DNA of 64,000 bases. It comes from Nitratireductor basaltis. Lineage in GTDB: Bacteria; Pseudomonadota; Alphaproteobacteria; Rhizobiales; Rhizobiaceae. The position numbers were made by a program, and so were the translations under genes. Below, one piece after another: positions 39,318-59,663 of this stretch. The DNA lies in NCBI RefSeq assembly GCF_000733725.1, contig NZ_JMQM01000001.1:310001-374000 (forward strand), in the 5' to 3' direction. Numbering within the stretch: position 1 is the first letter of the stretch; the number at the start of each line of letters is the position of its first letter. Under the pieces are notes generated by a model. The model worked only from the letters and a program-made list of their open reading frames with translations, was not told the DNA's origin and did no database searches.

Positions 39318-40955
39318 TCAGCTTGCGGGACCGAACGTCTCATGATGAACCTGCTCCGTGGAGATGCCGCGCTCTTCCAATCCTTTTGTCAGGGATGAAA
39401 CAAAGCCGACCGGACCGCAGATCATGAATTGAGCTTCTGGTCCTGCACCCAGGGAGATCAGGTCTTCTGCCGACACGTGCCCTTTTATCGCAGTGGCAGG
39501 AAGAGGGAGATCCTGCGGGCGCGGTGCGGAAATGCATGTGCGCAGCGTAAGGTTAGTGGCCCGTGATGCCAGTTCGGCTATCTCGTCGCGGAAGGGATGC
39601 AGCGTACCGTCTCGCACGCCTTGTACGAAGAAGATGGGTCGTGAAGTTCCTGTCCGGATCAGATCATGAAGCATTGCCATCATCGGCGTCACGCCAACAC
39701 CGGCACTGACCAGCACAAGTGGCGTCTCGCCGGGTGGTGCAAGGAAATCACCTGAAGGCGAGCCAGCCTGCACCGTGTCACCGATCGCCAGATGATCGTG
39801 CATGTGGACTGATGCAAGTCCCGTCGGCTCGCGTTTGACGCTGATGCGATAATGCCGTTGCGAGGTTGAACCCGACAATGAATAGCTGCGGCGTACAGGT
39901 GTCGCATGGCCGGGAATTTCAAGTTCAAGCGGCAAATGCTGGCCGGGCAGGAATGAGGGGAGTGGAGTGTCATCCACGGAGGCCAGATAGAAGGACGTGA
40001 TTTCGCCGGTCTCGGCGACCTTTGCCTCGATGCGCAACTGGCGCATGTGCGACTTGTTGGCGTGCCAGCGTAGCGAGATGGCGCCCGGCCGCTCGACGAC
40101 CTGCTCGATCGTGACGACCACTTCGCGACGTGCCTGCGGGTCGCGACTCCCATTTCCATCCCATAGAACTTCCGCGCGTCCCGTCACATGCAATAGTCCG
40201 CCGCTCTCGAAGTCGACGAAGAGCATTCCGATGCGTGGATCGCGAAGCAGATTTCCGATCGTATTGAAAAAATTGTTCCCCGCATAATCGGGGAAGCGCA
40301 GTTTGCCATCACCAGTGATCTCGACAAAGCCGGGCGCACCTCCTCGGTGCGATGCGTCAAAACCCGACGTGCCCTGGCCATCCGTTCCCACCAGTCCGGA
40401 ACCGACGAAAAAAGTGTCTGATTTGGAGATCCATTCTTTCTGAGGCGCAGTCAGATGCCTGGACCTCCTGGCGCGAATTGCCGGACCAATGGTGGGTTCC
40501 ACACGGAACAATTCGCGCTCGCGAATGTATTGCGGGCAGTTGCCGAAGCTTTGCGCCACTTCGAGCATGAAACCACCCCCATCCTGCCGCAATCGACCGT
40601 TGACGCGATTGCGCCGGCGGGTTGCCAGTTCTATGCCCAGCACGCCCAGCTCGGCACCCGTGGTGAAGCCCGGTCCGAGGGGATCATCCGGGCCAGGACC
40701 TTTCGGCAGGAACAGGCAGCGCGGATCCGCAGAGGCTGCATCTCCCTCTTCCATCTCGATGAGAGAAACCCAGCGGCGACCGGCCTCATCGGCTCCGGCA
40801 ATGATGAGAAACGGCAAAGCGGCGAAGAACGCGCGATGCTGTTCAGGCATGAAGTCCCGGATGAACCGGCTTGCCTGCGCAGCGTTCTGCGCCACTCCGG
40901 CACGCTTTTGTGCCGTGAGTTCGCCGGCATGGAATGGACTGTGCAACTGTAACAT
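39318..40955 (-). CDS. Fusion of PPOX-like flavin domain and ferredoxin reductase-type domain
   Basis: A 545-residue protein in two parts. Residues about 40-290 resemble the pyridoxamine 5'-phosphate oxidase-like split beta-barrel (FMN or similar binding). Residues about 305-410 form an FAD-binding reductase domain with RRSYSLSG at 355, and 411-540 the NAD-binding domain with SAGVGVTPMMAM and MICGPVGFVSSL. No [2Fe-2S] domain follows, unlike many three-part homologues. It probably passes electrons from NAD(P)H through FAD to a bound flavin. The start at 40955 has GAGGTG upstream. It follows the GST gene by 18 bases. Confidence 0.8.
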   Translation of the reverse strand: MLQLHSPFHAGELTAQKRAGVAQNAAQASRFIRDFMPEQHRAFFAALPFLIIAGADEAGRRWVSLIEMEEGDAASADPRCLFLPKGPGPDDPLGPGFTTGAELGVLGIELATRRRNRVNGRLRQDGGGFMLEVAQSFGNCPQYIRERELFRVEPTIGPAIRARRSRHLTAPQKEWISKSDTFFVGSGLVGTDGQGTSGFDASHRGGAPGFVEITGDGKLRFPDYAGNNFFNTIGNLLRDPRIGMLFVDFESGGLLHVTGRAEVLWDGNGSRDPQARREVVVTIEQVVERPGAISLRWHANKSHMRQLRIEAKVAETGEITSFYLASVDDTPLPSFLPGQHLPLELEIPGHATPVRRSYSLSGSTSQRHYRISVKREPTGLASVHMHDHLAIGDTVQAGSPSGDFLAPPGETPLVLVSAGVGVTPMMAMLHDLIRTGTSRPIFFVQGVRDGTLHPFRDEIAELASRATNLTLRTCISAPRPQDLPLPATAIKGHVSAEDLISLGAGPEAQFMICGPVGFVSSLTKGLEERGISTEQVHHETFGPAS

Positions 40956-42853: not shown

Positions 42854-43582
42854 ATGGCTATTCAGGAAGCAACCAACTCTGATCGAATTGTGCGCAGGAA
42901 ACTGTCAGACGAAGTGTTTGACCGCCTGCGGGCAATGATCCTGACCGGGGAGTTGCGGCCTGGAGATACGGTGCCTTCCGAACGCGATCTGATGGCGCGC
43001 TTCGGTGTCGGGCGTCCTGCCGTGCGCGAGGCGCTTCAGACCATGCATATCATGGGGCTGATCACGGTTTCCCATGGTGAGCGCAGCCGGGTGAACGAAC
43101 TTACGCCAACAATGGCTTTCCAGCAGGTAGACGCCGTCGCGCAACTGCTGCTGACCGCAGAGCCGGAAAACCTCGAACATCTCAAGGAAGCGCGAAAGCT
43201 GTTCGAGGTCGGTATCATAAAGGCCGCAGCGGTGAAGCGTACCGAAGCTGACATCGAAGAACTGCGACAGCTCCTGAAAGAGCAGCGAAGCAAGCTCGGG
43301 AACGCGCCCGACTTCATCCGCGGCGATATCGCGTTTCACACGAAAATTGCCTCGATCTCGGGTAATCCGATGATTACGGCGGTGGCAAGCGCAATGCTGA
43401 AATGGCTTTTCCATTACCACACTTCGCTTCTGCACTGGTCAGGTCGCGAAGATGTGACTTTGGACGAGCACGAGCGGATCATCGACGCATTGGCCAAGGG
43501 CGATGCCGATCTCTGCGCCGAGATCATGACGGTGCATCTCGATCGGTCCGATGCCTATTACCGTCATCACCGTCGAGCGTGA
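42854..43582 (+). CDS. GntR family regulator (FCD subfamily) of the D-apiose locus
   Basis: A 242-residue GntR regulator. The winged helix-turn-helix runs through LSDEVFDRLRAMILTGEL and SERDLMARFGVGRPAVREAL, near residues 17-65. The FCD ligand domain follows, with His ligand candidates in IAFHTKIAS and MTVHLDRSDAYYRHH. The ATG at 42854 is chosen over a longer frame from 42791. It lies at the end of the D-apiose gene group and shares its upstream motif with apnO, lerI/oiaK and oiaX, so it is the likely repressor of the locus. Confidence 0.85.
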   Translation: MAIQEATNSDRIVRRKLSDEVFDRLRAMILTGELRPGDTVPSERDLMARFGVGRPAVREALQTMHIMGLITVSHGERSRVNELTPTMAFQQVDAVAQLLLTAEPENLEHLKEARKLFEVGIIKAAAVKRTEADIEELRQLLKEQRSKLGNAPDFIRGDIAFHTKIASISGNPMITAVASAMLKWLFHYHTSLLHWSGREDVTLDEHERIIDALAKGDADLCAEIMTVHLDRSDAYYRHHRRA

Positions 43583-43613
43583 TCCTCCGGCTGTCGCCTC
43601 AAGCGAAGCTTGC

Positions 43614-45464
43614 TCAACCCGAGAACGGGATCTGTTCAACGGCATAGGGCGCGAGCGTCAGGCTTGTGCCGGATGCCACATCCACCTGCAGGTTCCGCTC
43701 CGTGAGATTGGCGATCAACAGCATGTCGCCAACCGCCAGGGACGCTACTTCATCCGCATTGCTGGTATGGACGGTTCTCGCCGGTCGCCCGGCCAACCTC
43801 GACAATTGGCAAAGCAGGGACCCTAGGGGCGTTAGGGAGTCCCGCTGGGCAATGCCGCGCAGGCCCGCACCGGCGGACGGGGTCCAGACTTTGATCCCGA
43901 AGGGAAGTGTGGCCGCGAGATAGCCCAAGGTATAGGCTGCGGCGAACTGAGCACTATGGCGCGGGTCCTCGTTTGCCATGCAAATGCGTTCACCGCTAGG
44001 GTTGTTCATTGTGCGCGAACCATATGGGTTCTGCCGCATCGGAATCGACGACAGGCCAAGCCTGTAGGCCTTTCGGCCGATAATCGCGCGCGTGGAGCGG
44101 AATATCCATGGCAGAGCCGACAGGGTTTGCATGACACTCCTGTCGTCGGCTGCGTGCACGATCGGATTCGTCCCATGCGCAACATAATCCAGATGTCGCA
44201 GGGGCGGGCGCTTTCGATTGAGCTCGGTGAAGTATGAAAGCATACCTCCGCCCAGGACTATCCCGGGGAATGCGTCGCGCGCTTCCCTGTAGATCTCTTC
44301 AAGAGGTGGGCAGTCCGGCCAGGTGCTGCCTGGGGGCGTCGACTGGCGGTCTACCGAGGGGCATACGAACAGAGAGGCAGGGAAAAGCCCCACCCGTTTC
44401 ACTTCGGCGGCCAAAGCCTGGAACTCGGCGGCGAGTGAGCCTTCGCAAGCTACAGCGTATTCGATATCCACATCCGCATTCAGCAGTTTTGCAAGTTCTG
44501 CGAATGGTTGCAGGTTGAGCTCTCCGGCGACCGCATCGATATGTGCTGTCAATCGTTGCGGGCGAACTGCTGAAATGTGCTCGGGCCTGTCCAGCGCCTC
44601 GCGCGCTTCATCCGATGTCAGCACCAGGGCCAGTTGCGGTATGCGCCCCTCGGCCTCCTTGGCCACTTTCAGTACGGGCCGCTTTCCCGTCGCTGCGACA
44701 TTCGAGCGACCGGAGAAGGAAACGGCAATGGATTGGGACAGTGTTTCTTCAGAACGGATCAGGTAAGGCCACGGCAAGGCGAGCGGGCGATTGTAGGTCT
44801 TGAAGGATGCGTCCGACCATTGGCGCTGATCCTCCATCTCGAACACGTCGCCTGCCATTTCGCAGCGGGTCTCGACACCTGATTGCCGGTGCGTGATCGC
44901 GACGATGTCCATGAAAGGCTGCCACGGCTCGATTTCGTTCGGCAGCGAAGTGTCCTCGCTGCTGCCGTCCGAGTGCTCCACCCGAACTGGACAGCCGGAA
45001 GCGGAGACGGGGTGCAGAATGGTGAAACCGGCACGATTGGTTTCAAAGTCTCCCCGTGCCTTCGCTTTCGAGAGAAAGCGCAATCCGCTGTCTGAAGCTT
45101 CGATCTTGAGAACGGCATCAAGGTGAGCATCGCCGTTGGTGAAGCGGGCGCTCCAGCTCAGCTCCAGCCGACCATTATCCCTTCGCTCCTCAACCGGCCC
45201 CAGAGCGGCCGCGATCGTCCCCCAGTCCCGGTCACGGACAGGGAAGGTGATGCCGCGCACGACCTCGACCCCATCGAATGATATCTGCGAGATGCCACCC
45301 TCGACCAGATCGAAGGCTAAACGCCCGATTTCATAGCGCACTGATATCGGACGGGGAGCGGTGGTCCCGAAAAGGCGCGTCAGCTCCGCGTCCGTGAATG
45401 AAGGTTCGCTCATGCTGCCGGTCCCGGAGCGTTGCCAGTCTGCGGTTCGAAGATATGCATGCAT
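43614..45464 (-). CDS. apnL: D-apionate lactonase
   Basis: A 616-residue protein that resembles the D-apionate lactonases described with the D-apiose pathways, which open D-apiono-1,4-lactone to D-apionate. The fold is a glycoside-hydrolase-like TIM barrel with flanking beta domains. No signal peptide is seen. I cannot name the catalytic residues from sequence alone. The start at 45464 is close to a GAGGAG; ATG at 45413 is an alternative. It follows apnO by 27 bases in one operon, which agrees with lactonase feeding the oxidoisomerase. Confidence 0.8.
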   Translation of the reverse strand: MHAYLRTADWQRSGTGSMSEPSFTDAELTRLFGTTAPRPISVRYEIGRLAFDLVEGGISQISFDGVEVVRGITFPVRDRDWGTIAAALGPVEERRDNGRLELSWSARFTNGDAHLDAVLKIEASDSGLRFLSKAKARGDFETNRAGFTILHPVSASGCPVRVEHSDGSSEDTSLPNEIEPWQPFMDIVAITHRQSGVETRCEMAGDVFEMEDQRQWSDASFKTYNRPLALPWPYLIRSEETLSQSIAVSFSGRSNVAATGKRPVLKVAKEAEGRIPQLALVLTSDEAREALDRPEHISAVRPQRLTAHIDAVAGELNLQPFAELAKLLNADVDIEYAVACEGSLAAEFQALAAEVKRVGLFPASLFVCPSVDRQSTPPGSTWPDCPPLEEIYREARDAFPGIVLGGGMLSYFTELNRKRPPLRHLDYVAHGTNPIVHAADDRSVMQTLSALPWIFRSTRAIIGRKAYRLGLSSIPMRQNPYGSRTMNNPSGERICMANEDPRHSAQFAAAYTLGYLAATLPFGIKVWTPSAGAGLRGIAQRDSLTPLGSLLCQLSRLAGRPARTVHTSNADEVASLAVGDMLLIANLTERNLQVDVASGTSLTLAPYAVEQIPFSG

Positions 45465-45491
45465 CTCCTCTGGAAACTCCGTCTCCGCGCC

Positions 45492-46316
45492 TCAGGTGAT
45501 ACGCTGTATGCTGGCTGCAATCTCCTCGGCCTCAAAGACGCGCTTCCAGTCGTCGCGCATGAGTGCCGGCTTGCCGTACTCGATTGCCTTGTTGCAGGCG
45601 TCCGAGAATACGCCGTCGACTTCCTTGAAGATGACCGCACCAAGGATGTTCATGTGACCAAGCAGGAAGTCGCGGGCTGCTTCCGCAGGTACACCCCGTC
45701 TGACGACCTCGTCCATGGCCTCGCGCATCACGTCGAGCAGCGAGGCGCAGACGGTTTCCGACAGGCCCGGTTCGAGCATTGCCATCTGTTCGACGGTCAC
45801 GCGATGCGAGCGGAAGACCGGGGCGTAGATCGCCTTGCCAACCTTTTCGCCCAGCGCATAGTCCTCTTCCGGACCCTGCATGAGCGCGTTGACGATGGCC
45901 TGCTTGGCCGCCACACCACCGAAATAATCGTGCCGACCTTCATAGGTCTCCTCATCATTGAAGATGGGAGGATGGCAGGGGTGGGTCACGAAGTAGGTGA
46001 CGTCCTTGCGATCCGGCAGATGTCCGGCGAAGGGGCCTGCCGCGTCGAGGCAGACGACCATTGCCCCGCTCTCCACGCGGTCGATGATCTGGCTCGATAC
46101 GGCCCTGATGGCGGTGTCCGGTACAGCAAGGACAATCACCCTTGCATTGGCCAGAGCCTCGTCAGCGCTTACACAATCGACTCCCACAGCGTCCTTCAGA
46201 CGTGCCTGTCCCGCATCCGATACCTCCACATGGGCCACATCGAAATCGGTATTCACGAGGTTCTTCGAAAGGCGCACGCCCATTTTCCCGCCCGCACCGA
46301 ACAAAGCCAGTTTCAT
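45492..46316 (-). CDS. apnO: D-apionate oxidoisomerase
   Basis: A 274-residue NAD-dependent enzyme of the phosphogluconate-dehydrogenase-like fold. The dinucleotide motif LFGAGGKMGVRLSKNL is at the very N-terminus, and the central region HPCHPPIFNDEETYEGRHDY is distinctive for this family. It oxidises and rearranges D-apionate to 3-oxo-isoapionate. A GTCAAC element and a GGTATGATGA half-site lie upstream at 46336-46365, so the regulator at 42854 probably controls it. It is followed by apnL on the same strand. Confidence 0.83.
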   Translation of the reverse strand: MKLALFGAGGKMGVRLSKNLVNTDFDVAHVEVSDAGQARLKDAVGVDCVSADEALANARVIVLAVPDTAIRAVSSQIIDRVESGAMVVCLDAAGPFAGHLPDRKDVTYFVTHPCHPPIFNDEETYEGRHDYFGGVAAKQAIVNALMQGPEEDYALGEKVGKAIYAPVFRSHRVTVEQMAMLEPGLSETVCASLLDVMREAMDEVVRRGVPAEAARDFLLGHMNILGAVIFKEVDGVFSDACNKAIEYGKPALMRDDWKRVFEAEEIAASIQRIT

Positions 46317-46335
46317 TGTGAAGAGCCTCCAAAGC

Positions 46336-46365
46336 TGTCAACATATATACTGGTATGATGAGATA
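46336..46365. promoter_or_regulatory. GntR-type operator upstream of apnO
   Basis: TGTCAAC at 46336-46342 is followed, after 8 AT-rich bases, by TGGTATGATGA at 46351-46361. These are the two halves of the shared locus motif with wider spacing. It lies about 20-50 bases before the apnO start. The TATATA in between may serve as the -10 region. Confidence 0.5.
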
Positions 46366-46691
46366 CTAATCGCCCGGTGGTGTCAAGGAGAGGGGAGGCT
46401 GCGTCACAGCTCATGACATAATGTGCTGGGGGCAGAACATGGCCCTTCATGTGCAGGGAGGGCGATGAACGAGGGCACTTGAATTTCATTGAATCGGGTC
46501 TGAACCGCAGAGGCATTCCGAGTGTGAGCGGGCGTAGCGCAAGCGCGTCGAGACATGCATCTTCCGGGACGCGGATGCGCGAACGCCTGGAGCGGACGTC
46601 CGGGGCTAGCGGGCGACAGAAGTACCAGCCCCGACGCGGACTGATTGCCACCGTCGGCTACGGCAGATGGCTGTTGCCGGGGGGCTGCGAA
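46366..46691. other. Spacer with no recognisable gene between apnO and derI
   Basis: About 326 bases between the apnO operator and the end of the rpiB-like gene. Open frames are present on both strands but none has a good ribosome site or a recognisable product. I see no terminator, repeat or mobile element. It may be a remnant or a regulatory leader. Confidence 0.5.
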
Positions 46692-47156
46692 CTACCGGTG
46701 CTGATGATACTTTGCGTCGAGCGCATCAATGGCTTGGACATTGGCCGCGGAGCGTCCCTGTGGATCGAATTCCTGGGCAAGCCAATGATCAGCAATGGAC
46801 TTGGCGAGCTCCAGCCCCACCACCCGCGAGCCCATGGTGATGATCTGTGCATTGTTCGACAATGCCGCACGTTCTGCCGAATAGGTGTCATGGGTTTGTG
46901 CGGCGCGGATGCCTGGAACCTTGTTGGCCGAGAGACAGACACCTATCCCCGTGCCGCAGCAAAGAATGGCGCGGTCGTAGTTTCCCTCCAGAATGCCCTG
47001 GCATACCCGGTCGGCAAGCTCGGCATAATATTCGGTGCCGCCACCTGGGGCATCGCTGGCTTCGGTGACTGCCAGTCCGTCCCGGTCCTTCAGGTAGTCG
47101 TAAAGGGCACGGGCAAGGGGCGCTCCGGCACTATCTCCTGCGATGATAAGCTTCAT
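46692..47156 (-). CDS. derI: RpiB-like D-erythrulose-4-phosphate isomerase
   Basis: A 154-residue RpiB/LacAB family isomerase. Active-site segments are visible: [15 protein letters not shown] with the Asp, [20 protein letters not shown] with the catalytic Cys, and [20 protein letters not shown] with the His. In the D-apiose pathway, DerI converts D-erythrulose 4-phosphate to D-erythrose 4-phosphate. The ATG overlaps the stop of the TIM-like gene (ATGA), the same pairing as EryH/EryI of Brucella erythritol catabolism. Ribose-5-phosphate isomerase activity cannot be excluded. Confidence 0.83.
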
Positions 47157-47929
47157 GCTGTAGTCTTCCTTTTTTCGGCAATGGCACAACGGGAAAGGAT
47201 GTCGAGATAGCCCTCCACACTCCAGGCGGCCCGGCCAATGAAGAGGCCATCGACATCCGGACATGTGACAAGTTCGGTGCAATTGGCGGCGTTGACGCTG
47301 CCGCCATAAAGGCAGGGAACGGGCTGCCCGCTGAGCTCGACTGCAACCTTTCGGATCCTGGCATGGCGCGCCCGGACGTAATCCGGCGGGGCTGGGGTGC
47401 CGCCGTCGCCGATGGCCCATACCGGCTCGTAGGCGAATAGCAGGGGGTTTTTGAAGTCTTCGTCTTCCAGAAATGAGAGTGCGGCTTCTACCTGTGTCTT
47501 CAGCACGTGGTCGGCTTCGCCCTGCAGCTTTTGTGCAGCGGTTTCCCCGATGCAGATCAGCGGTATCAGGCCGTGGTCAATCGCGGCCTTGACCTTGCGA
47601 CCAACGGCATCGTCAGTCTCGTTGAAGTGCGTGCGTCGTTCCGAATGGCCAAGTTCCACAATCCTGGCACCGCAGTCGGCCAGCATGGGCGCGGAGACTT
47701 CACCCGTCCAGGCACCGGATGGCTCCCAGTGCATGTTCTGGGCGCCGACGAGAATGTCTGTTCCCTCCAGCAGCTCGGCGACTTCACGGATATAGGGGAA
47801 GGGCGGAATGATGAAGCGCTGCACATGCTTTGCGCCCTGTGTGCCGGCCAGTCGTTGCGCGTAGCGGCGCGCTTCCTCGCCGGACTTGTTCATTTTCCAG
47901 CTCGTGCCAATCCACAGCTTCTCCGCCAT
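47153..47929 (-). CDS. lerI: Triosephosphate isomerase-like L-erythrulose-1-phosphate isomerase
   Basis: A 258-residue TIM-barrel isomerase with [10 protein letters not shown] (Lys), LGHSERR (His), [12 protein letters not shown] (catalytic Glu) and YGGSVNAAN. The N-terminus [12 protein letters not shown] resembles EryH, which isomerises L-erythrulose 1-phosphate, more than central-metabolism TpiA. It would receive the product of OiaX. The start at 47929 matches the usual protein length; in-frame ATGs at 47935 and 47950 are alternatives. It overlaps derI by 4 bases and is divergent from oiaK. Confidence 0.85.
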
Positions 47930-47986
47930 CGCCATCGATCTCTTCGCCATTGCAGTTCGGCCAGCTTGTTGAGGTAGCCATCTCTC

Positions 47987-48003
47987 GTCAACTGGTATAA
48001 TGA
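47987..48003. promoter_or_regulatory. GntR-type operator and -10 between lerI and oiaK
   Basis: The element GTCAACTGGTATAATGA includes a plus-strand TATAAT -10 box at 47996-48001, 28 bases before oiaK. It is shared with the regulator's own promoter and with oiaX. On the minus strand TATACC may serve lerI (TTGTCA with a 15-base spacer). A repressor bound here would silence both directions. Confidence 0.65.
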
Positions 48004-48029
48004 GATAATCATAATGACAAGGAGATATC

Positions 48030-49412
48030 ATGTCACGAAGTTTTGCGGAGGCTGAATTTTCTCAGGCGCCGTGGATCACTTGGCTGGGAGATGATTTCAC
48101 CGGTTCGGCCGCGGTAATGGAGGCACTTGCCTTTTCCGGGGTACCAGCGGTTCTGTTCACTCAAATGCCATCCGCGGAATTGCTGGAGCGCTTTTCCCAC
48201 TGCAGAGGCATCGGTCTTGCCACAACTGCACGCAGCCATACGCCGCAATGGATGGAGGCGGAGCTGCCGGGGCTCTTCGAATTCCTCGACCGTCTCGGCG
48301 CGCCGCTCTTGCACTACAAGATCTGTTCGACCTTCGATTCTTCGCCAGCTATCGGCTCGATTGGCAAAGCTGCGGAGATCGCATTGTCCACAATACCGTC
48401 ACAGGTCGTCCCGATGGTGACAGCTGCGCCGCAAATGCGCCGGTACCAGGCATTTGGCCATCTGTTTGCCAGTACGTATGACGGTGTCTGGCGCATCGAC
48501 CGGCACCCGGTCATGTCCCGGCATCCGGTCACGCCAATCGCGGATTCGGATCTGCTGCGGCATTTGTCGCTGCAAACAAAACTGCAATCAGGGCTTATCG
48601 ACCTCGAGGCGCTGGGCGGTGATGCGCAGCAGCGTCTTGAAGAGCTGGTGGACAAGGGCTGCCGCATCGTTTCCATCGACAGCATGGATGCGAAGAGCGA
48701 GGAAGCGGCCGGGCGGCTTATCTGGGAAAACCGAGAGCGGGCAGGGCTGGTGTTGGGAAGCCAGGGTGTCGAATACGCGCTGGTACGGCACTGGAAGCGT
48801 CTGGGCCTGCTCGACGAAGCACCTGAACCTACCGGCGCTGGCAAGGTCGACCGTGTGGCAGCGGTTTCCGGTTCGGTCTCGCCCATGACTGCAGCGCAAT
48901 TGGGTCGGGCGGAAAAGGACGGCTTTTATCTGCTTGCCATGGATGCGGGGCGCCTGCTTGGATCGCAGGCGGAACGTGAGGCCGAGGAGCAGCGCCTTGT
49001 CAGTGAAGCGGTAAGCGCGGCCGAAGCGGGACAAAGCCCGCTTGTCTATTCGGCGGCCGGCCCGGATGACCCCGCCGTCGAGCGCTTCAGGAATGCCGTC
49101 GCAGACAGAGGGTTCGACACAGACGAAGCCAATGAAATTGTGGGTACGAGCCTCGGACGCATTCTGGATGCTATCCTGACCCATACGCGGATACGCCGGG
49201 CGATAATCAGTGGCGGAGATACGTCAGGCCATGCATTGAAGGCGCTGAAGCTCGGTGCGCTGGTCGCGCTCGCACCGACGATTCCGGGGGCTGCGTTGAA
49301 CAAGGCCTACGGTGATGGCGCCCATGACGGCCTGCAAATAGCCTTGAAGGGGGGACAGATGGGCACCGAAGACTTTTTCTCCTGGGTGCGTGATGGCGGC
49401 GGGCCACGTTGA
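48030..49412 (+). CDS. oiaK: 3-oxo-isoapionate kinase
   Basis: A 460-residue four-carbon acid sugar kinase family (DUF1537) protein. The N-terminal WLGDDFTGSAAVMEAL and YKICSTFDSSPAIGSIGKA carry the sugar-acid site, and IISGGDTSGHALKAL near the C-terminus holds the ATP-binding glycines. In this locus it would phosphorylate 3-oxo-isoapionate to its 4-phosphate, the substrate of the RuBisCO-like enzyme. AAGGAG lies 5 bases before the ATG. It is transcribed away from lerI and converges on apsD. Confidence 0.85.
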   Translation: MSRSFAEAEFSQAPWITWLGDDFTGSAAVMEALAFSGVPAVLFTQMPSAELLERFSHCRGIGLATTARSHTPQWMEAELPGLFEFLDRLGAPLLHYKICSTFDSSPAIGSIGKAAEIALSTIPSQVVPMVTAAPQMRRYQAFGHLFASTYDGVWRIDRHPVMSRHPVTPIADSDLLRHLSLQTKLQSGLIDLEALGGDAQQRLEELVDKGCRIVSIDSMDAKSEEAAGRLIWENRERAGLVLGSQGVEYALVRHWKRLGLLDEAPEPTGAGKVDRVAAVSGSVSPMTAAQLGRAEKDGFYLLAMDAGRLLGSQAEREAEEQRLVSEAVSAAEAGQSPLVYSAAGPDDPAVERFRNAVADRGFDTDEANEIVGTSLGRILDAILTHTRIRRAIISGGDTSGHALKALKLGALVALAPTIPGAALNKAYGDGAHDGLQIALKGGQMGTEDFFSWVRDGGGPR

Positions 49413-49414
49413 AA

Positions 49415-49443
49415 AACGGCCCAGGCTTTCAGCCTGGACCGTT
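49415..49443. terminator. Bidirectional terminator between oiaK and apsD
   Basis: A 13-base stem with one mismatch, AACGGCCCAGGCT facing AGCCTGGACCGTT, has a 3-base loop. The right arm ends 3 bases before the apsD stop and the left arm starts 2 bases after the oiaK stop. A and T runs flank the stem, so it can work in both directions. Confidence 0.75.
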
Positions 49444-49446
49444 CCT

Positions 49447-50463
49447 TCAGATCTCGCTGAGTTCCACGGTGCGGTGCTCTTTGGCGGAGCGATAGGCCGC
49501 TTCCACCAGTGCGAGAGTGCGCAAGTTGTCCTGCCCTGAAGTCTCCGGCTCTTCGCCCCGGGTCACGCATTCCAGAAAATGCTTCTGTATGAGAAGCACA
49601 CTCTCCTGGATGTTGTGCCAAGGCTTTTCGGCCCAAGGCAATAATGGTGGCGAAACGTCTTCCACATGGCTCCCGTCACGCTCGATGGTCATGCTGTAAC
49701 CCGCGTCGAGACGCAGCGTGCCCTTCTCGCCGTCGATTTCCAGAATGGTTTCGGGAAAGGTCTCGCGGGTGCGGCGGGTGGCATAGGAGCAATCCACGAC
49801 GCTGGTGACGCCCTGCTCATGCTCCAGCAACATTGTTGCTACATCCTCACCACGGATCGCCTGGTTGATCCGCGTTGTTGTCGCGGTGATGCGTGTGGCG
49901 TCGCCGAAAAGGGCCCGCGCGATGTCGAGGATGTGAATGCCGAGATCCTCGATGATGAAGCGCTCACCTTCAGCCAGATAGGGCTGACCCGAATAGACGT
50001 CATAGCCGGAGCGGAAGGAAATGCGCCCAAAGAAGGGTGTGCCTATGGCGCCATTGCGTACCGCTTGAATGGCGCTGCGAACCGCTGACTGCCACCGGAA
50101 GTTCTCGTGTACCATGAGCACACGTCCTGCGCCGTGGACGGCAGCAACCATTGCACGGGCGTCTTCCATGGTTTCGGCAAACGGCTTCTGGCAGATAACG
50201 TGCACGCCAGCCCTGGCGGCTGCTTCGACCAATGGACGGTGGCTCTGGACCGTGGTCGCGATATCGACGAAGTCGAGGTCTTCCGAAGCGAGCATTTCCT
50301 CGGCATCGGTATATGTACGCCCCACGCCGAATGCCTCTGCCGTTTCACTCAGGCGTTTCACGTCGCGATCACAAAGGGCCACGATTTCGACGCCCTCCAG
50401 GTCCCGCCACGCATGCATCTGGTTCTGGGCAAAGAACCCGCAGCCTATCAATGCCCCCTTCAT
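49447..50463 (-). CDS. apsD: D-apiose dehydrogenase (Gfo/Idh/MocA family)
   Basis: A 338-residue NAD(P)-dependent sugar dehydrogenase. The nucleotide motif is GALIGCGFFAQNQMHAW. The family EKP motif appears here as CQKPFAETMEDA near residue 96, and the catalytic His is in EDLGIHILDIARALF near residue 177. It would oxidise D-apiose to D-apiono-1,4-lactone, the substrate of ApnL. It follows the importer genes on the same strand, 20 bases after the permease, so uptake and first oxidation are probably co-transcribed. Confidence 0.83.
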   Translation of the reverse strand: MKGALIGCGFFAQNQMHAWRDLEGVEIVALCDRDVKRLSETAEAFGVGRTYTDAEEMLASEDLDFVDIATTVQSHRPLVEAAARAGVHVICQKPFAETMEDARAMVAAVHGAGRVLMVHENFRWQSAVRSAIQAVRNGAIGTPFFGRISFRSGYDVYSGQPYLAEGERFIIEDLGIHILDIARALFGDATRITATTTRINQAIRGEDVATMLLEHEQGVTSVVDCSYATRRTRETFPETILEIDGEKGTLRLDAGYSMTIERDGSHVEDVSPPLLPWAEKPWHNIQESVLLIQKHFLECVTRGEEPETSGQDNLRTLALVEAAYRSAKEHRTVELSEI

Positions 50464-50482
50464 GCAAAACTCCGTTGCTTGC

Positions 50483-51547
50483 TTACTTGCTTGCATTTGC
50501 CTGCGCGCGCAGCGCCACGGCCGACTGGACGCGCTGTTGCGCCTGGTCGACGACGACTGCCGCAATGATCACGAGGCCCTTGATGACCGTTTGCCAGAAG
50601 GCCGAAACACCCATCATGACCAGGCCGTCGGAAAGCACACCGATGACGAATGCGCCAACGATCGTACCGGCGATGCGTCCACGTCCACCCGACATGGATG
50701 TTCCACCGAGGACGGCGGCCGCGATGGCGTTCAGCTCGAAAGTCTCGCCGGTCGCGGGATGCGCAGCGACAAGCTGCGATGCGATGATGATGCCGACGAG
50801 CGCTGCACACAAGCCGGAGAACATGTAGACGAAGAACTTAACCTTGGTCACGGGCACGCCCGAAAGGCTTGCCGCGCGCTCGTTGCCTCCCACCGCGTAG
50901 ATATAGCGCCCGAGCGGCGTGCGGGTGGCGATGTAGGCTGCGACGAGGCCCAGCACGATCAGCATCCAGATGGATACGGGAATACCCAGAACATTGCCGG
51001 CGCCGATCCACCGGAATGTTTCCGATCCATATTCGGGGTTTCCGTTCAGGTTCGGGAAGGTGCGGCCGTCGGAGGAAAGCATTGCCGCGCCGCGGGCCAC
51101 GTAAAGCGTTCCCAGCGTGGCTATGAAGGGTGCGACATTAAGCTTTGTGATCAGGAAGCCGTTGATGGCACCGATGAGGATGCCCACGAGAACCACGAGC
51201 AGGCAGATTTCCAGCGTGTTGAACTGGATGGACCAGCCCAGCCCGAAATCCACGCCATGCAAGATGAGCCAGCCTGCCACCATGCCGCACAGCCCCACCG
51301 TGGAGCCGACCGAGAGGTCAATTCCGCCTGACACGATGACAAAGGTCATGCCGATGGCCAGGAACGCGTTCAGCGCCACATGCTTGGACATAATCACCAT
51401 ATTTGCCGTCGACAAGAAGTTCGGCGCTGCGAAGGCGAAAAACGTAAAGACAAGGATCAGCGCGATGAAGGTACGCGCCTTGAGAAGCAGCAGAAGAAAT
51501 TCGGTGTTGTCGCGCTCCCGCGGCTGTGCCAGGGTCTGTTCACTCAT
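50483..51547 (-). CDS. Ribose-type sugar ABC transporter permease
   Basis: A 354-residue RbsC-family membrane protein with about ten helices. The conserved cytoplasmic loops include GIDLSVGSTVGLCGMVAG near residue 70 and VGGNERAASLSGVPVTKVK near residue 220. It homodimerises to form the channel for the RbsA-like ATPase. The ATG at 51547 overlaps the ATPase stop by one base; a GTG at 51550 is also possible. Locus context makes D-apiose the best guess for cargo. Confidence 0.88.
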   Translation of the reverse strand: MSEQTLAQPRERDNTEFLLLLLKARTFIALILVFTFFAFAAPNFLSTANMVIMSKHVALNAFLAIGMTFVIVSGGIDLSVGSTVGLCGMVAGWLILHGVDFGLGWSIQFNTLEICLLVVLVGILIGAINGFLITKLNVAPFIATLGTLYVARGAAMLSSDGRTFPNLNGNPEYGSETFRWIGAGNVLGIPVSIWMLIVLGLVAAYIATRTPLGRYIYAVGGNERAASLSGVPVTKVKFFVYMFSGLCAALVGIIIASQLVAAHPATGETFELNAIAAAVLGGTSMSGGRGRIAGTIVGAFVIGVLSDGLVMMGVSAFWQTVIKGLVIIAAVVVDQAQQRVQSAVALRAQANASK

Positions 51548-53088
51548 CACGCATGTTCCTTGAAATGCTCTGCAGGCTCGTGCCCGAGCGACGAAGCCTT
51601 CACCAATGCCGTTTCACTTGCGGTCCTGCCGTCGAATTCACCGGTAATCCGCCCGTTCGACATCACGATTATTCGGTCGGACAGGGCCAGGACCTCTTCG
51701 AGATCCGAGGTGACGAAAACAATGCCCAGTCCGTCGGCAGCCAGCTTCCGCATCACGCGGAAAACCTCTGCTTTCGCGCCGATGTCGATGCCGCGAGAGG
51801 GTTCATCCATCAGCAGCACCTTGGGGCCGGTCATCAACGCCTTGGAGATCACGACCTTCTGCTGATTGCCGCCTGAAAGGGAAGAAACCTCATGATCAAC
51901 CGAGGCGATCTTCACCGTCATGCGCTTGACATAGTCGGCAACGATCTGTGTCTCCTTTTTCAGCGACATGTGCAGCCCCCGGGTAAATTTTCCCAGGCTC
52001 GACAGCGTCATGTTTTCCCGCGTCGACAGGATCTGCACGAGCCCGTCTCGCTTCCGGTCCTCGGGGATCAGGGCAATGCCACGTTTGATGCGCCCGGCGA
52101 TGCTGGAACCGCTGAGTTCTGTTCCTTCGACGAAGAACCGGCCCTCGCAATGCGGGTGCCGGCCCATGATGCATTCCAGGAGCTCGGTGCGTCCTGCGCC
52201 CATGAGCCCGTAGATGCCAAGGATTTCGCCCTGGCGCAGGGAAAAGGATACATCCTCCACAGCCATGCCGCCGCTGGCTCGAGGGAGCGAAACATTTTCG
52301 GTGCGCAGCACTTCCTCGCCCAGCGGGTGCTCTTCCGCCTTGGCGAATTCCTTGGAACTGTCACCGATCATGTTGCGCACGATCCAGTCGATATCCACGC
52401 CATCCATGGAGCGCGTGCCGGTGATAACGCCGTCCCTGAGGACGGTGATGTAGTCTCCGATCCGGATCAGCTCTTCGAGGCGATGCGAGATATAGACGAT
52501 GCCGACGCCATTCCTCTTCAGATCGGCGATGACCTTGAACAGGATTTCGACTTCTGCTGCCGACAGGGCGGATGTGGGCTCGTCGAGGATGAGAATGCGT
52601 GCATCCTGGGCCAGACTCTTGGCGATCTCGACGATCTGCTGTTGGCCTACCTGAAGGTCACCGACCAGCGTGTCAGGGTCGATATCGTGCTCCAGCCGCT
52701 CCATGAGCTTGCGCGCCTCGCGCTTTTGAGCGGAGGCATCGATGTCGATGCCGGCGCGCGTCTTCTCGCGCGCGATGAAAATGTTTTCTGCAACCGTCAT
52801 GTTCGGGAACAGGTTCAGTTCCTGGAAGACGATGCCAATGCCGTGTCGGGCCGCCTCGTCGGTGGAGTGAAACCGCACTTCCTCTTCACCCATGAAGATG
52901 CGCCCGAGGGTGAGTTGCTCTACCCCGGCAATCACCTTCATCATGGTCGACTTGCCGGCACCGTTTTCGCCCACAAGCACGTTTACGGCGCCCATCCGCA
53001 GGTCGAAATCAACATATTTGAGCGCGGTCGTGCCGGGATAGACTTTCACGCCTTGCCTGATGGACAGGCCGATTGGATGCTCGGTCAT
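51547..53088 (-). CDS. Ribose-type sugar ABC transporter ATPase (two ABC domains)
   Basis: A 513-residue RbsA/MglA-type protein with tandem ABC domains. The first has Walker A VGENGAGKSTM, Walker B ILDEPTSALS and the signature LQVGQQQIVE. The second has the degenerate Walker A YGLMGAGRTELLE, the signature SLSGGNQQKVV and Walker B LLMDEPSRGID. This asymmetry is normal for the family. It overlaps the permease gene by one base and the DUF2291 gene by 4 bases. Confidence 0.9.
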   Translation of the reverse strand: MTEHPIGLSIRQGVKVYPGTTALKYVDFDLRMGAVNVLVGENGAGKSTMMKVIAGVEQLTLGRIFMGEEEVRFHSTDEAARHGIGIVFQELNLFPNMTVAENIFIAREKTRAGIDIDASAQKREARKLMERLEHDIDPDTLVGDLQVGQQQIVEIAKSLAQDARILILDEPTSALSAAEVEILFKVIADLKRNGVGIVYISHRLEELIRIGDYITVLRDGVITGTRSMDGVDIDWIVRNMIGDSSKEFAKAEEHPLGEEVLRTENVSLPRASGGMAVEDVSFSLRQGEILGIYGLMGAGRTELLECIMGRHPHCEGRFFVEGTELSGSSIAGRIKRGIALIPEDRKRDGLVQILSTRENMTLSSLGKFTRGLHMSLKKETQIVADYVKRMTVKIASVDHEVSSLSGGNQQKVVISKALMTGPKVLLMDEPSRGIDIGAKAEVFRVMRKLAADGLGIVFVTSDLEEVLALSDRIIVMSNGRITGEFDGRTASETALVKASSLGHEPAEHFKEHA

Positions 53089-53741
53089 TGCGCGGTTCCG
53101 AAACTCAGGGTCGTCGGAACGATCTCGGGACGGTCACTGCCGTTGCGCATGGTGAAGACACCCTCGAAGGACACATCCATCCCGACAAGGTCACTTTCCG
53201 GCAAGGAGATGCGCTTGTGCGCAGCAGTGTTCAGCCCGTTTGCAAGCTTCGCGAATTCGATCTGGTCGCGGAAATCAGTGAACACGATGAATGGCATCGC
53301 GTCGCGTATTGCGGTGCCCCGGATGACGGGCCCGAGCTGAACGGTAACGTCTGCCTCGCCGTCCTCGTCGGTGTCCAGCTGCATCTTGGCGGCACGGCTT
53401 TCCGTATTCGCCTCGACAATTTTTCCGGTGCCACTGACAACGAAATTCCAGGGGTTTGCTTCACCCTCGGGCCGCAGGCCATATTGATCACCCGCAGCGT
53501 CAAGACCATTCTCGAGTGCGGCGCGCAGATCCGCCAGCGGCACGCTCTTCTCCTTGATGAGCGGTAGCACTTTCGGCTCCCACATCTCCTCCGCCAGAAC
53601 TTCCATCCGCTCTGCGTCGGTTTGGGGTGCTTTTGCCGCCTCAGCTGCTTTTTCCTCGTCCTCGAAGACGAGTTCGCAGCCCGGGAGCATCACCACGAGC
53701 GCGAGCGCCGCCAGTGTGGAACGGATCGAGATCCTATTCAT
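53085..53741 (-). CDS. DUF2291 family lipoprotein of sugar ABC operon
   Basis: A 218-residue predicted lipoprotein. The signal peptide ends with the lipobox LPGC at about residue 22, and the mature protein starts CELVFEDEEK. It contains DTDEDGEADVTVQLGPVIRG and other segments typical of DUF2291, a family often found beside ribose-type ABC importers and of unknown role. It lies between the binding-protein gene and the ATPase gene, overlapping the latter by 4 bases, so it is probably a periplasmic accessory of the transporter. AGAGG precedes its ATG. Confidence 0.78.
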   Translation of the reverse strand: MNRISIRSTLAALALVVMLPGCELVFEDEEKAAEAAKAPQTDAERMEVLAEEMWEPKVLPLIKEKSVPLADLRAALENGLDAAGDQYGLRPEGEANPWNFVVSGTGKIVEANTESRAAKMQLDTDEDGEADVTVQLGPVIRGTAIRDAMPFIVFTDFRDQIEFAKLANGLNTAAHKRISLPESDLVGMDVSFEGVFTMRNGSDRPEIVPTTLSFGTAQ

Positions 53742-53759
53742 CACGCGCCTCTGTATTTG

Positions 53760-53792
53760 GCCCGGCAAATGGCCTGAGGCCATATGCCGGGC
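53760..53792 (-). terminator. Intra-operon hairpin after the sugar-binding protein gene
   Basis: A nearly continuous stem is formed by GCCCGGCA with TGCCGGGC outside and ATGGCC with GGCCAT inside, around a TGA loop. It lies 21 bases after the binding-protein stop. Such hairpins commonly stabilise or attenuate transcripts so that the binding protein exceeds the membrane subunits. Confidence 0.65.
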
Positions 53793-53813
53793 AGCAGTCA
53801 ATCCTGGAAGATA

Positions 53814-54818
<1,005 letters not shown>

Positions 54819-54833
54819 TCAAAAGCTGGAGGA

Positions 54834-54863
54834 TTTACGTCACCTTGTCAACAGGTATAATGA
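54834..54863 (+). promoter_or_regulatory. oiaX promoter and GntR-type operator
   Basis: TTTACG at 54834-54839 and TATAAT at 54856-54861 form a promoter with a 16-base spacer, 29 bases before the oiaX ATG. The element GTCAACAGGTATAATGA at 54847-54863 overlaps the -10 and matches the one before oiaK at 15 or more of 17 bases. Confidence 0.65.
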
Positions 54864-54889
54864 GTATCGTAGTCACGGCAGGAAATCCC

Positions 54890-56143
54890 ATGAGAGACGA
54901 CGAAATCCAAGTCACCTACCGCCTTGAAACTGCAGGCGAGGTGGAGGCGCTGGCCACCAAGATCGCCTCTGACCAGTCAACGGGGACGTTCACCGCGCTG
55001 CCCGGTGAAACGGAAGAGGTGCGCGCGAGATGTGCGGCCCGCGTGGTCTCGGTAACGCATCTTGAGCCATTGGCCGTGCCGTCCATCCCGCAACCGGGTG
55101 AAGCAGGGCCGTTCAATCGGGCAGATGTCGTGATCAGCTACCCGCTTGAGGCGGTGGGGACCGATTTCGCAGCCCTGCAGACGATCACGATTGGCGGCGT
55201 GTTCGCCGTTCGAGGCCTCAGCGGTGTGCGGGTCATGGACATGGCGTTGCCGTCGGCATTCGCGACCCACCCTGGCCCCCAATTCGGTATCGAGGGATCC
55301 CGTCGGCTCACCGGGGTGGAGGAGGGGCCCATCATCGCCTCAATCATCAAGCCGTCGCTGGGGCTTCTCCCGGAGGAAACGGCGGCTGCGGTGCGCGTGT
55401 TGTGTGATGCGGGCGTCGACTTCATCAAGGATGATGAAAAGCTGATGAGCCCCGGATACTCATCCCTGGACAAACGCATATCCGCCGTCATGCCGGTGAT
55501 CCTCGATCACGAGCAGCGAACGGGAAAGAAGGTCATGTATGCCTTCGGCATATCGTCTGCCGATCCGGAGCGGCTGATGCGCAATCACGATATGGTGGTC
55601 GAAGCCGGGGGCAATGCCGCCGTCATCAACATCAACTCGATCGGCTATGGCGGGATGAGTTTTCTGCGCAAGCGCTCGGCACTGTGCCTTCACGCACACC
55701 GCAACGGCTGGGATGCGCTCACCCGGCATCCGGGACTAGGGATGGAATTTCGTCCTTACCAGAAGATCTGGCGCCTGCTCGGCGTGGATCAGTTCCAGAT
55801 CAACGGAATCCGTGCGAAATACTGGGAGCCTGACGAGAGCTTCGTGCGCTCGTTCCACGACTGCATGACTCCTATCTTCTCAAACGCGGACAGGCCCTTG
55901 CCGGTTGTCTGTTCCGGACAATGGGGTGGACAGGCCGTCGATACCTTCGAACGCACCGGTCGGACGCTCGATCTCATGTATCTTGGCGGCGGCGGCATTC
56001 ACGGCCATCCGATGGGAGCGGCTGCGGGTGTCCGTGCCATGCGACAGGCCTGGGAGGCGGCGAGCCGCGAGCTGTCGCTTCAGGAGATGGCGAAGGACCA
56101 CCCGGAACTCAAGGCGTCCCTGGAAACCTTCGGCCAGGACTGA
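54890..56143 (+). CDS. oiaX: RuBisCO-like 3-oxo-isoapionate-4-phosphate decarboxylase
   Basis: A 417-residue member of the RuBisCO superfamily. The barrel has IIASIIKPSLGLLPEE near residue 163 and the carbamylated-Lys metal site FIKDDEKLMSP near residue 180, with HAHRNGWDAL and CSGQWGGQ further on. The RuBisCO loop-6 Lys is not in its usual setting and no other Calvin cycle genes are present, so it is not a CO2-fixing enzyme. The neighbouring LerI and DerI favour OiaX (decarboxylation to L-erythrulose 1-phosphate) over OiaT (hydrolysis). The ATG at 54890 has AGGA upstream; an ATG at 54860 lies in the -10 region. Confidence 0.83.
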   Translation: MRDDEIQVTYRLETAGEVEALATKIASDQSTGTFTALPGETEEVRARCAARVVSVTHLEPLAVPSIPQPGEAGPFNRADVVISYPLEAVGTDFAALQTITIGGVFAVRGLSGVRVMDMALPSAFATHPGPQFGIEGSRRLTGVEEGPIIASIIKPSLGLLPEETAAAVRVLCDAGVDFIKDDEKLMSPGYSSLDKRISAVMPVILDHEQRTGKKVMYAFGISSADPERLMRNHDMVVEAGGNAAVININSIGYGGMSFLRKRSALCLHAHRNGWDALTRHPGLGMEFRPYQKIWRLLGVDQFQINGIRAKYWEPDESFVRSFHDCMTPIFSNADRPLPVVCSGQWGGQAVDTFERTGRTLDLMYLGGGGIHGHPMGAAAGVRAMRQAWEAASRELSLQEMAKDHPELKASLETFGQD

Positions 56144-56426
56144 TAGGGGCGGAGGTGTCAGTCTCCCCTCCACCTGTGGGCTGCCGGGAATTCATCGTTC
56201 CGGAATGGGCTGGAACTGTCACTTGAAGACAAGCGTTCAGCATTTGCCTCTCGAGGGCGCTGAAACGGCAGTTTGATGCACGAGCACCGTGCATTGGATT
56301 TCCGGCTGCAAGGCAGGATTTCGGGCCTGCCCCATTCGGCAAATCAATGCGTTTGCAAACGGTTCGACTATGGCAGATAGATGGATTCAGGACTGAGCGG
56401 TGGTCCTGGTGCCCGGAGACAAATTG

Positions 56427-59400
56427 ATGTCTGAGACATTGTCGATCGACAGTTCTATCGATTTCGCAGCGATCGTAGAACATTGCGAAGATGCGATCAT
56501 CAGCCTGTCTCTGGATGGTACCATCACGAGTTGGAATCGTGGCGCGACGAAGCTTTTCGGCTACGAAGCGAAGGTGATGGTCGGTACCTCTATCACACGG
56601 CTTATCCCCGTCGAGCGACATGCAGAGGAGGACGAAATCCTCTCCCGCATAAGTAAGGGGGAAAACGTATCGCATTTCGAAACGCGCCGCCTCACGAAGG
56701 ATGGGCGGGAGCTCGATATTTCTCTGACTGTTTCGCCGATCAAGGATCAGAGCGGGAATGTCATCGGGGCTTCGAAGATTGCACGCGACATCACTGCCCG
56801 CAAACGCCTGGAGGCCGGGCACCAAAAGCTCATCGATTGCGCGCGGCTGGTCGGGCGCCCCTTCCTTGACGCGGTGGTCGAGGCATTGGCCGAGGCATTG
56901 GAAGTGCGCTGGGTTCTTCTGTGTGATCTTCACCCGGAAGAACCAGGCAGGGCACGTGTGCTTGCGGGATGGACCGACGGCCATCCACAGGAATACTACG
57001 AGTATGAGCTTCGTGGCACGCCCTGCGCCAATGTGCTGAGAGACGAGGCCTGTTTTTATCCCGCGAATGTCTCGGCCTATTTTCCAGAGGATCCGCTTCT
57101 CGGTGAAATGGGGGTCGAGACCTATCTGGGGGTTCCGCTGCGTGGTGCGGAGGGAGAAACCTTCGGCTTGCTTGCAGTCCTCAATGACAAGCCGATCGAT
57201 CCCGAACTTCAGCCTCGCCACACCCTTGATCTGTTTGCAGGCCGTGTGGCTGCGGAACTGCAACGTATCGCCACCTCCTCGATCAATGAAAGGCTGGGCC
57301 GGATCGTGGAGGATGCGGCCAGTGAGACCTATGTTTTCGACGTCGAAACGCTCAAGTTCATTCTCGTCAACAGGGGCGCGCGCGAGAATATCGGCTATTC
57401 CATGGAGGAGTTGCGAGAGCTAACCCCGCTGGACATCAAGCCCGCGCTGTCGGCCGACGAATTCGACCAGCTCATCGAGCCGTTGCGCAATCGCTCGATC
57501 GAGGTGCAGCAGTTCCAGACGATCCATCGGCGCAAGGATGGCAGCGAGTACAATGTTTCCGTCTCGCTCCAGCTTCTTGAAGATGAGACCCGCCCCGTAT
57601 TCTTTGCGGCAATCGAGGACACGACCGACAGGGATATTGCTCTATCGGGCTACAAACAGGCCACCCAACGCCTGGACACGATCCTGAACAACACCACCAT
57701 GGCCGTGTTCCTGATGGATGATCGGCAGGAATGCATCTACATGAATCCTGCAGCCGAGACCTTGACGGGCTACAGCTTCGAAGAGACGCGTGGTCGTCCG
57801 CTGCATGATGTGATCCACCACACCTATCCCGATGGACGACCATTTCCGCTTGCGGAATGTGCGATCGATCGTGCTTTCCCCGAAGACAATCAGGTTCAGG
57901 GCGAGGAAATGTTCATCCACAAGGACGGAACTTTCTTTCCTGTTGCCTTCACAGCGAGTCCCATCCGCAATGAAGACGGTTTGCCCGTCGGCACCGTCAT
58001 CGAAGTGCGGGAAATCACGGCTGAATTGCGCGCCCGGGAGGCCATGGCGAGCTTCAATGAAGCACTCAAGAAGCGTGTCGAGGAAGAAGTCGCTGAACGC
58101 GCGGTTGTCGAAGAGCAACTTCGACAGGCACAGAAGATGGAAGCGATCGGCCAACTGACCGGTGGCATCGCACACGATTTCAACAACCTGCTGCAGGTGA
58201 TCGGCGGAAATATTCAGCTGTTGATGCGCGAACTTGCGGGCAATCCCCGCGCCGAGGAGCGTCTCCAGAATGCCCTGGCAGGTGTCAACCGAGGCGGCAA
58301 ACTGGCTTCGCATCTGCTCGCTTTCGGCCGCCGACAGCCCCTGGCACCCAAAGCGGTCAATCTGGGGCGGTTGCTGCGTGGAATGGACGATCTGCTACGG
58401 CGGGCCGTGGGTGAGGGCGTGAAAGTCGCAATTCACGCACCTGAAGGCTTGTGGAATTCATTGATCGACGAGGCACAGGTCGAAAACGCCATCCTCAATC
58501 TTGCGATCAATGCCCGCGATGCGATGGATGGACAGGGTTCCCTGTCGATCGAAATCAGCAACACGCAACTGGACGCCCGTTACGCCAGCCGACATCCCGA
58601 TGTCGAGGCCGGTGAATATGTGCAGCTCAGCATCACCGATACGGGATGCGGTATCCCTTCCGACATTCTCGACCAGGTGTTCGATCCCTTCTTCACCACC
58701 AAGCCACCTGGAAAGGGATCCGGTCTCGGGCTGAGCATGGTCTATGGACTGACGAAACAGTCGAACGGGCATATCAGCGTCAGTAGCGAGGTCGGACAGG
58801 GTACGACGTTCAAGATCTATTTCCCCCGTACGCATCAGCAGGAGGAAGAAGCCAGCCTTGCTAAGGCTGCAGAGTCGGTGCGTGGCGGAAGCGAGACCAT
58901 TCTCGTTGTCGAAGACGACGAAGATGTGCGCAAGACCGTGACGGAAATGCTGTGCGAGCTTGGTTACAACGTGCTGGAAGCCGCCGACGCGGATAGAGGT
59001 TTGAAGGTTGTCGAAAGCGGAGCCCCGTTGGATCTGCTTTTCACGGATGTCGTGATGCCGGGGACCCTCAGCAGTCGCGACCTGGCGCAGCGTGCAAAGG
59101 AACTTGTTCCGGGACTGAAGGTGCTCTTCACCTCTGGCTATGCGGAAGATGGCATCATCCATGGCGGCCGTCTGGATGAGGCGGTGGAACTTCTGAGCAA
59201 GCCCTACACCCATGAGGAGCTGGTCCATCGATTGCGCACTCTTCTCGATGCGCCAGGTGGAAGGGAGGAGATGCAGTTTTCGGAAAGCGGGACGGCAGAG
59301 GGCAGTGTCCCCCTGAGCGTGCTCCTCGTCGAAGACGAGCCTCTGATCCGGATGACGGGGGTCGAGATGCTTTCGGAAATCGGGCTGACCGTGTTCGAAG

Positions 59401-59663
59401 CCGAAACGGCAAAGGAAGCACTGCAGGTTCTCGAGAACACGAGGATCGATGTCATGATTACCGATCTCGGTCTTCCGGATGTCTCTGGCGAAACGCTTGT
59501 CTCTGAAGTTCAGGAGAAGTGGCCGTCCATCAGGATCATCGTCGCTTCGGGTTTTGCAAGCAATGAGGCTCTGGAAGGCAAGGTTGACGGAGGGGAAATC
59601 GGATGGCTGGCGAAACCCTACGGCGTTGATGACGTCAGGCGTGCTCTCTATCCCTGCGACTGA
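56427..59663 (+). CDS. Hybrid sensor histidine kinase with PAS, GAF and two receiver domains
   Basis: A 1078-residue soluble sensor. Domains in order: PAS (about 10-125), GAF (130-285), PAS (285-405), PAS (415-540), a coiled coil, HisKA with phospho-acceptor His583 in GGIAHDFNN, and HATPase with [19 protein letters not shown] and [11 protein letters not shown]. Receiver 1 has acceptor Asp874 and receiver 2 has Asp1013. There is no membrane segment or DNA-binding output, so phosphate must pass to another protein. GGAG lies 8 bases before the ATG. No partner regulator is in the window. Confidence 0.87.

Follow-up and report, generated by a model that had tools for sequence, protein, structure and literature searches.

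Does Nitratireductor basaltis carry a complete route from the plant sugar D-apiose to D-erythrose 4-phosphate, and what reaction would its RuBisCO-like protein contribute to it? The question is raised by a block of genes at positions 42854-56143 of a 64,000-nucleotide stretch of its genome, hereafter called the window. The block is real, its limits coinciding with gene ends, and it very probably serves the uptake and breakdown of D-apiose by the oxidative type of pathway that runs through the decarboxylase OiaX.

The analysis shows which genes are present, their families, the clade of the RuBisCO-like protein, co-occurrence, synteny and a conserved site; from these we infer the substrates, the reactions and the binding of the regulator as follows. 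A ribose-type ATP-binding cassette (ABC) importer would take in D-apiose, ApsD would oxidize it to a lactone, ApnL would open the lactone to D-apionate, and ApnO would convert the latter to 3-oxo-isoapionate. After phosphorylation by OiaK, the product would be decarboxylated by OiaX to L-erythrulose 1-phosphate, from which LerI and DerI would yield D-erythrulose 4-phosphate and then D-erythrose 4-phosphate, leading into central metabolism. A NanR-type repressor probably keeps the gene sets off through a common site, AACtGGTATRATGAGta, until a pathway sugar is present. This order of reactions is that of the described pathway and of the NCBIfam names. Oxidative D-apiose pathways were reportedly presented by Carter et al. 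in 2018 (cited in PMC6302742), with a RuBisCO-like decarboxylase said to act on 3-oxo-isoapionate 4-phosphate; the window shares this decarboxylase and the NCBIfam enzyme families with them, adds a further genome and shows no chemical difference, and the locus is a further complete example of an already described pathway.

Gene content and co-occurrence

The RuBisCO-like protein scores 778.2 bits against the NCBIfam OiaX family, above its equivalog cut-off of 700, and the RpiB-family protein scores 260.2 bits against DerI, above a cut-off of 240. Phylogenetic placement had been set beforehand as the refutation test for the RuBisCO-like protein; in a tree of 34 of 103 proteins, it falls with the annotated OiaX of Rhizobium etli in a 16-row clade with a support of 100/100, separate from the sister RuBisCO-like proteins found in its own genus. 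(The set was assembled with L088 removed as short and with L001 and L082, both from the same genome as the window, left out; the tree is without L089 and L090 and includes neither the assayed proteins of the original pathway paper nor the assayed K84 protein.) Within the genus, surveyed in 16 genomes including this one, the OiaX cut-off is passed by this genome only.

Across 249 genomes of the order, for which match lists were capped and the lack of a listed match was counted as no hit above the cut-off (in agreement with the tally of 19), OiaX exceeds its cut-off in 19 and DerI in 26. DerI accompanies OiaX in 18 of these 19 genomes, as opposed to 8 of the 230 others (Fisher p 2.5e-20, kinship ignored), and it exceeds its cut-off in none of the 31 genomes that hold only sister-type RuBisCO-like proteins (about 360-466 bits), some of which have weaker RpiB-family matches.

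The open reading frame list and the family scans together give 12 protein genes in the block. The initial annotation had counted thirteen; the block itself and every enzyme family that it listed are present, as are the ribose-type importer (four genes) and the GntR regulator, and only the count has to be lowered. A thirteenth gene was sought in the block and none was found, the scan covering two of the longer overlapping opposite-strand reading frames (45432-46358 and 46449-47210), neither of which has a Pfam match at E 1e-5. Ten of the 12 proteins were scanned against NCBIfam and Pfam, and the permease and ATPase are named after their R. etli counterparts; start codons were chosen in this analysis. 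The genes, which by their layout form six transcription units including two divergent pairs, are listed here with their predicted products:

42854-43582, plus strand: NanR-type GntR/FCD repressor, probable regulator of the locus
43614-45413, minus strand: ApnL, D-apionate lactonase (D-apionolactone to D-apionate)
45492-46316, minus strand: ApnO, D-apionate oxidoisomerase (PF16896, 246 bits)
46692-47156, minus strand: DerI, D-erythrulose-4-phosphate isomerase (RpiB family)
47153-47929, minus strand: LerI, L-erythrulose-1-phosphate isomerase (triose-phosphate isomerase, TIM, family)
48030-49412, plus strand: OiaK, 3-oxo-isoapionate kinase
49447-50463, minus strand: ApsD, D-apiose dehydrogenase (Gfo/Idh/MocA family; Pfam GFO_IDH_MocA)
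50483-51547, minus strand: sugar ABC importer permease (71% identity to the annotated permease of R. etli plasmid p42f)
51547-53088, minus strand: sugar ABC importer ATPase (61% identity to the annotated p42f ATPase)
53085-53741, minus strand: DUF2291 predicted periplasmic lipoprotein, probable importer part (PF10054, 180 bits)
53814-54758, minus strand: solute-binding protein of the importer (5ibq, 510 bits; 4ry0, 509 bits)
54890-56143, plus strand: OiaX, 3-oxo-isoapionate-4-phosphate decarboxylase (RuBisCO-like protein)

Every enzyme name given earlier finds backing in the top-scoring family, in a solved relative or in the R. etli counterpart. Plasmid p42f of R. etli CFN 42 (NC_007766.1) holds counterparts of all 12 genes in one place (36-79% identity), and its annotation names oiaX and NanR, with ApnL annotated as hypothetical; the two loci differ in layout: on p42f, eleven genes share one direction next to an oppositely oriented regulator, and DhaK and DhaL come after them, whereas in the window these genes make up six units. 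We further compared 81 loci, namely the best 80 of 409 relatives in named genomes together with that of R. etli, a sample whose counts lean to close relatives. With flanks limited to 10 kb in the 80 relatives and identity floors for gene presence set in this analysis, all twelve genes occur in at least 10 of the 81 loci and nine core genes in at least 38, at least 11 of these 38 having both isomerases; because the flanks were cut, these counts are lower bounds. These numbers, together with a distance below 10 kb between OiaX and DerI in 8 of the 19 OiaX genomes (hand count from coordinates), do not bear out the suggestion that a chain without gaps is unusual.

The regulator and its predicted operator

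With 294.3 bits, the regulator passes the NCBIfam NanR subfamily cut-off of 260, and its closest solved relative is Escherichia coli NanR (6on4, 125 bits). The sequence GGTATRATGAG has three copies in the 3.55 Mb genome, every one in the apiose locus, and a reversed control has 0. Each copy starts 36 bp before a start codon, and a variant precedes the regulator gene:

46352-46362, plus strand: predicted NanR-type operator before ApnO
47994-48004, plus strand: predicted NanR-type operator between the TIM-family gene and OiaK, spaced from the OiaK start codon
54854-54864, plus strand: predicted NanR-type operator between the solute-binding protein gene and OiaX, spaced from the OiaX start codon
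42778-42789, plus strand: variant site CTGGTTATACCA before the regulator gene, found by reading the region

Two of the sites fall between divergent genes and could in addition act on the TIM-RpiB and importer-ApsD units; the variant site points to possible autoregulation. In the 81 loci, 97 of 102 copies of the shorter form GGTATRATGA lie within 220 bp before pathway genes, although such regions make up 7% of the sequence (119,117 of 1,615,163 bases), and the reversed pattern has 0 copies; at least one copy occurs in these regions in 64 of the 81 loci. The 97 sites yield the consensus tcAACtGGTATrATGAGta. Among short sister-type loci, the motif is present in 11 of 30.

Could GGTATRATGA be a promoter -10 element only, rather than the site of a regulator? 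The sequence TGGTATAAT is readable as an extended -10 box, and the 36-bp distance common to the three window sites fits either reading. However, conservation extends to the flanks AAC and GAGta, 64% of the 97 sites have G at position 6, the sites occur in both orientations relative to the genes and at varying distances from the start codons, and the longer form is confined to its three copies in the genome. Overall, these properties make the promoter explanation unlikely.

The likeness to the sialic acid repressor NanR of E. coli lies in the shared NCBIfam subfamily and in a GGTATA-like half site; according to PMC8012715, that protein binds (GGTATA)3 and a single repeat poorly, and it controls another gene set. 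Two features of the window count against the regulation proposed here: each predicted site has one GGTATR rather than the two or more GGTATA repeats found in E. coli, and the variant at the promoter of the regulator gene, CTGGTTATACCA, deviates from the consensus. Because E. coli NanR binds one repeat poorly, the match to its operator is only partial, a shortfall that bears on the type of operator and not on the protein family of the regulator. A literature search, which covered subscription literature only partly, found no paper on an apiose operator.

The RuBisCO-like protein and the two isomerases

The catalytic lysine and metal ligands of RuBisCO (KxDE) are kept in the window protein (FIKDDE) and in 82 of 82 proteins of the OiaX set. 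At the positions of form I H325 and H327, next to loop 6, all 82 proteins of this set, including that of the window, have Gln (DQFQxNG); sister proteins have His at both positions (16 among the other rows of the tree set and 30 of 30 further ones, all of them top hits of a single sister query), and the mtnW outgroup has neither residue. In an AlphaFold model of OiaX (mean predicted local distance difference test score 89.8), the best structural match is 3nwr (VIA-align Z 50.8, root-mean-square deviation (RMSD) 1.5, 397 aligned), which is also the closest solved relative by sequence (320 bits). We tentatively propose, as an idea that may well prove wrong, that the His-to-Gln exchange confines OiaX to simple decarboxylation, as opposed to the transcarboxylase/hydrolase reaction, thereby deciding whether LerI and DerI are needed, and that the route is under an undescribed, apiose-specific NanR operator.

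The sister clade, which we take to hold the transcarboxylase/hydrolase OiaT, provides a rival for this chemistry. OiaT yields 3-phosphoglycerate and glycolate; were the window protein of this kind, the TIM- and RpiB-family proteins would serve another purpose. According to PMC6302742, RuBisCO-like proteins are reported to carry out decarboxylation as well as transcarboxylation/hydrolysis of one and the same substrate. Yet the OiaX cut-off is passed, the clade is separate and fully supported, DerI follows OiaX and not the sister types through the genomes of the order, and the isomerase genes lie in the same locus under the same predicted control site. An OiaT-type reaction is therefore very improbable here, and decarboxylation to L-erythrulose 1-phosphate is preferred.

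The predicted LerI has as its closest solved relative 11ef, named L-erythrulose-1-phosphate isomerase, at 327 bits compared to 173 for the second. A LerI/DerI pair is known from the erythritol pathway of Brucella, where the same two isomerases carry out the final steps; the difference is that, in the window, they sit within an apiose locus. That the local genes could be the housekeeping copies of their families is disfavoured by the presence of a second copy of each elsewhere in the genome; for the other TIM, 11ef is absent from the 60 listed of its 186 matches.

Two observations concern the arrangement of these genes and the relatives of OiaX. Among the 70 fetched loci with both ApnO and OiaK, 45 have the two as divergent neighbours, often round one GGTATRATGA site; in the window (46316-48030), they are separated by the TIM and RpiB genes and the site is present twice, which gives the impression of an inserted isomerase pair and a duplicated control region. 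Sister genes of the DHMHVHG type in Azospirillum and Alloyangia (L102, L104) have a different context, with TRAP transporter, VOC-family and kinase genes as neighbours, and a Haloarcula plasmid (L105, 7001-8245) encodes a RuBisCO-like protein 49% identical to that of the window, followed by a four-carbon acid sugar kinase and with TRAP genes upstream.

Steps before decarboxylation, importer and surroundings

ApsD has as its closest solved relative 5uhw, presumably a D-apiose dehydrogenase, at 444 bits compared to 116 for the second, and that of ApnO is 5t57 (430 bits; 72% identity to the R. etli counterpart). For the product of 43614-45413, ApnL is the sole NCBIfam match at E 0.001 and is nearly full-length. 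The solute-binding protein shares 79% identity with its R. etli counterpart, whose sequence agrees fully with that of the 5ibq chain once the tag is disregarded; the window protein superposes on 4ry0 (RHE_PF00037 of R. etli CFN 42 according to the entry title), with a VIA-align Z of 44.2 and an RMSD of 1.4 over 287 aligned residues. The 5ibq structure presumably holds D-apiose. That the locus is instead devoted to some other branched or acid sugar (D-apionate alone, D-hamamelose or ribose), its enzymes being look-alikes of the apiose ones, as the ribose transporter title of the nearest PDB entry for the binding protein and the missing specific NCBIfam matches of ApsD and ApnO might suggest, is hardly credible given that ApsD matches 5uhw far better than any other dehydrogenase and that apiose families are the best matches of ApnL, OiaK and OiaX.

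Against the apiose pathway as a whole speak the following points. The profile searches asked for at the outset place OiaX, DerI and NanR over their cut-offs; ApnL and OiaK are the best families for their proteins but stay below the equivalog cut-offs, at 698 bits against 750 and 488 bits against 700, respectively. For ApsD, ApnO and the TIM, NCBIfam offers no match specific to the pathway, the last being labelled triose-phosphate isomerase; the Pfam families and closest solved relatives of ApsD and ApnO fit. One of the 19 OiaX genomes (G262) has no DerI over the cut-off. The R. etli ApnL, 45% identical to that of the window, reaches 1050 bits, well over the cut-off, so the window ApnL is the divergent one and its step the least certain of the route. 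For OiaK, the R. etli kinase at the same place also falls short, at 474 bits, which indicates that this cut-off is strict.

A search of the genome for the apiosidase family PF13204 gave no match, so the host may, judging by its gene content, use free apiose released by others; life on plant matter is plausible, as a guess.

A plasmid search with positions 36000-60000 counted three Klebsiella records, the listed one being a 260-base piece of the ATPase gene at 74% identity; among the few plasmid records above 90% identity, one was traced to 51 bases in the ATPase gene (92%). OiaX is followed, at 56400-59663, by the gene for a hybrid histidine kinase of 1087 residues that has PAS and GAF domains and two receiver domains. 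At 39318-40955, a single reading frame encodes both a pyridoxamine-oxidase-like domain and an FAD/NAD-binding reductase part, and at 28273-33333 genes for a DeoR-family regulator, a glycerol-3-phosphate-oxidase-like and a glycerol-kinase-like protein are grouped, none over an NCBIfam cut-off.

In summary, the by-products of this analysis are more useful than the locus itself: the two-residue signature of OiaX, the link with DerI and the predicted operator, which offers a means of finding the apiose regulon in other genomes. If the signature explains decarboxylation as opposed to transcarboxylation, it would provide a compact and testable case of a RuBisCO relative shifting its chemistry.

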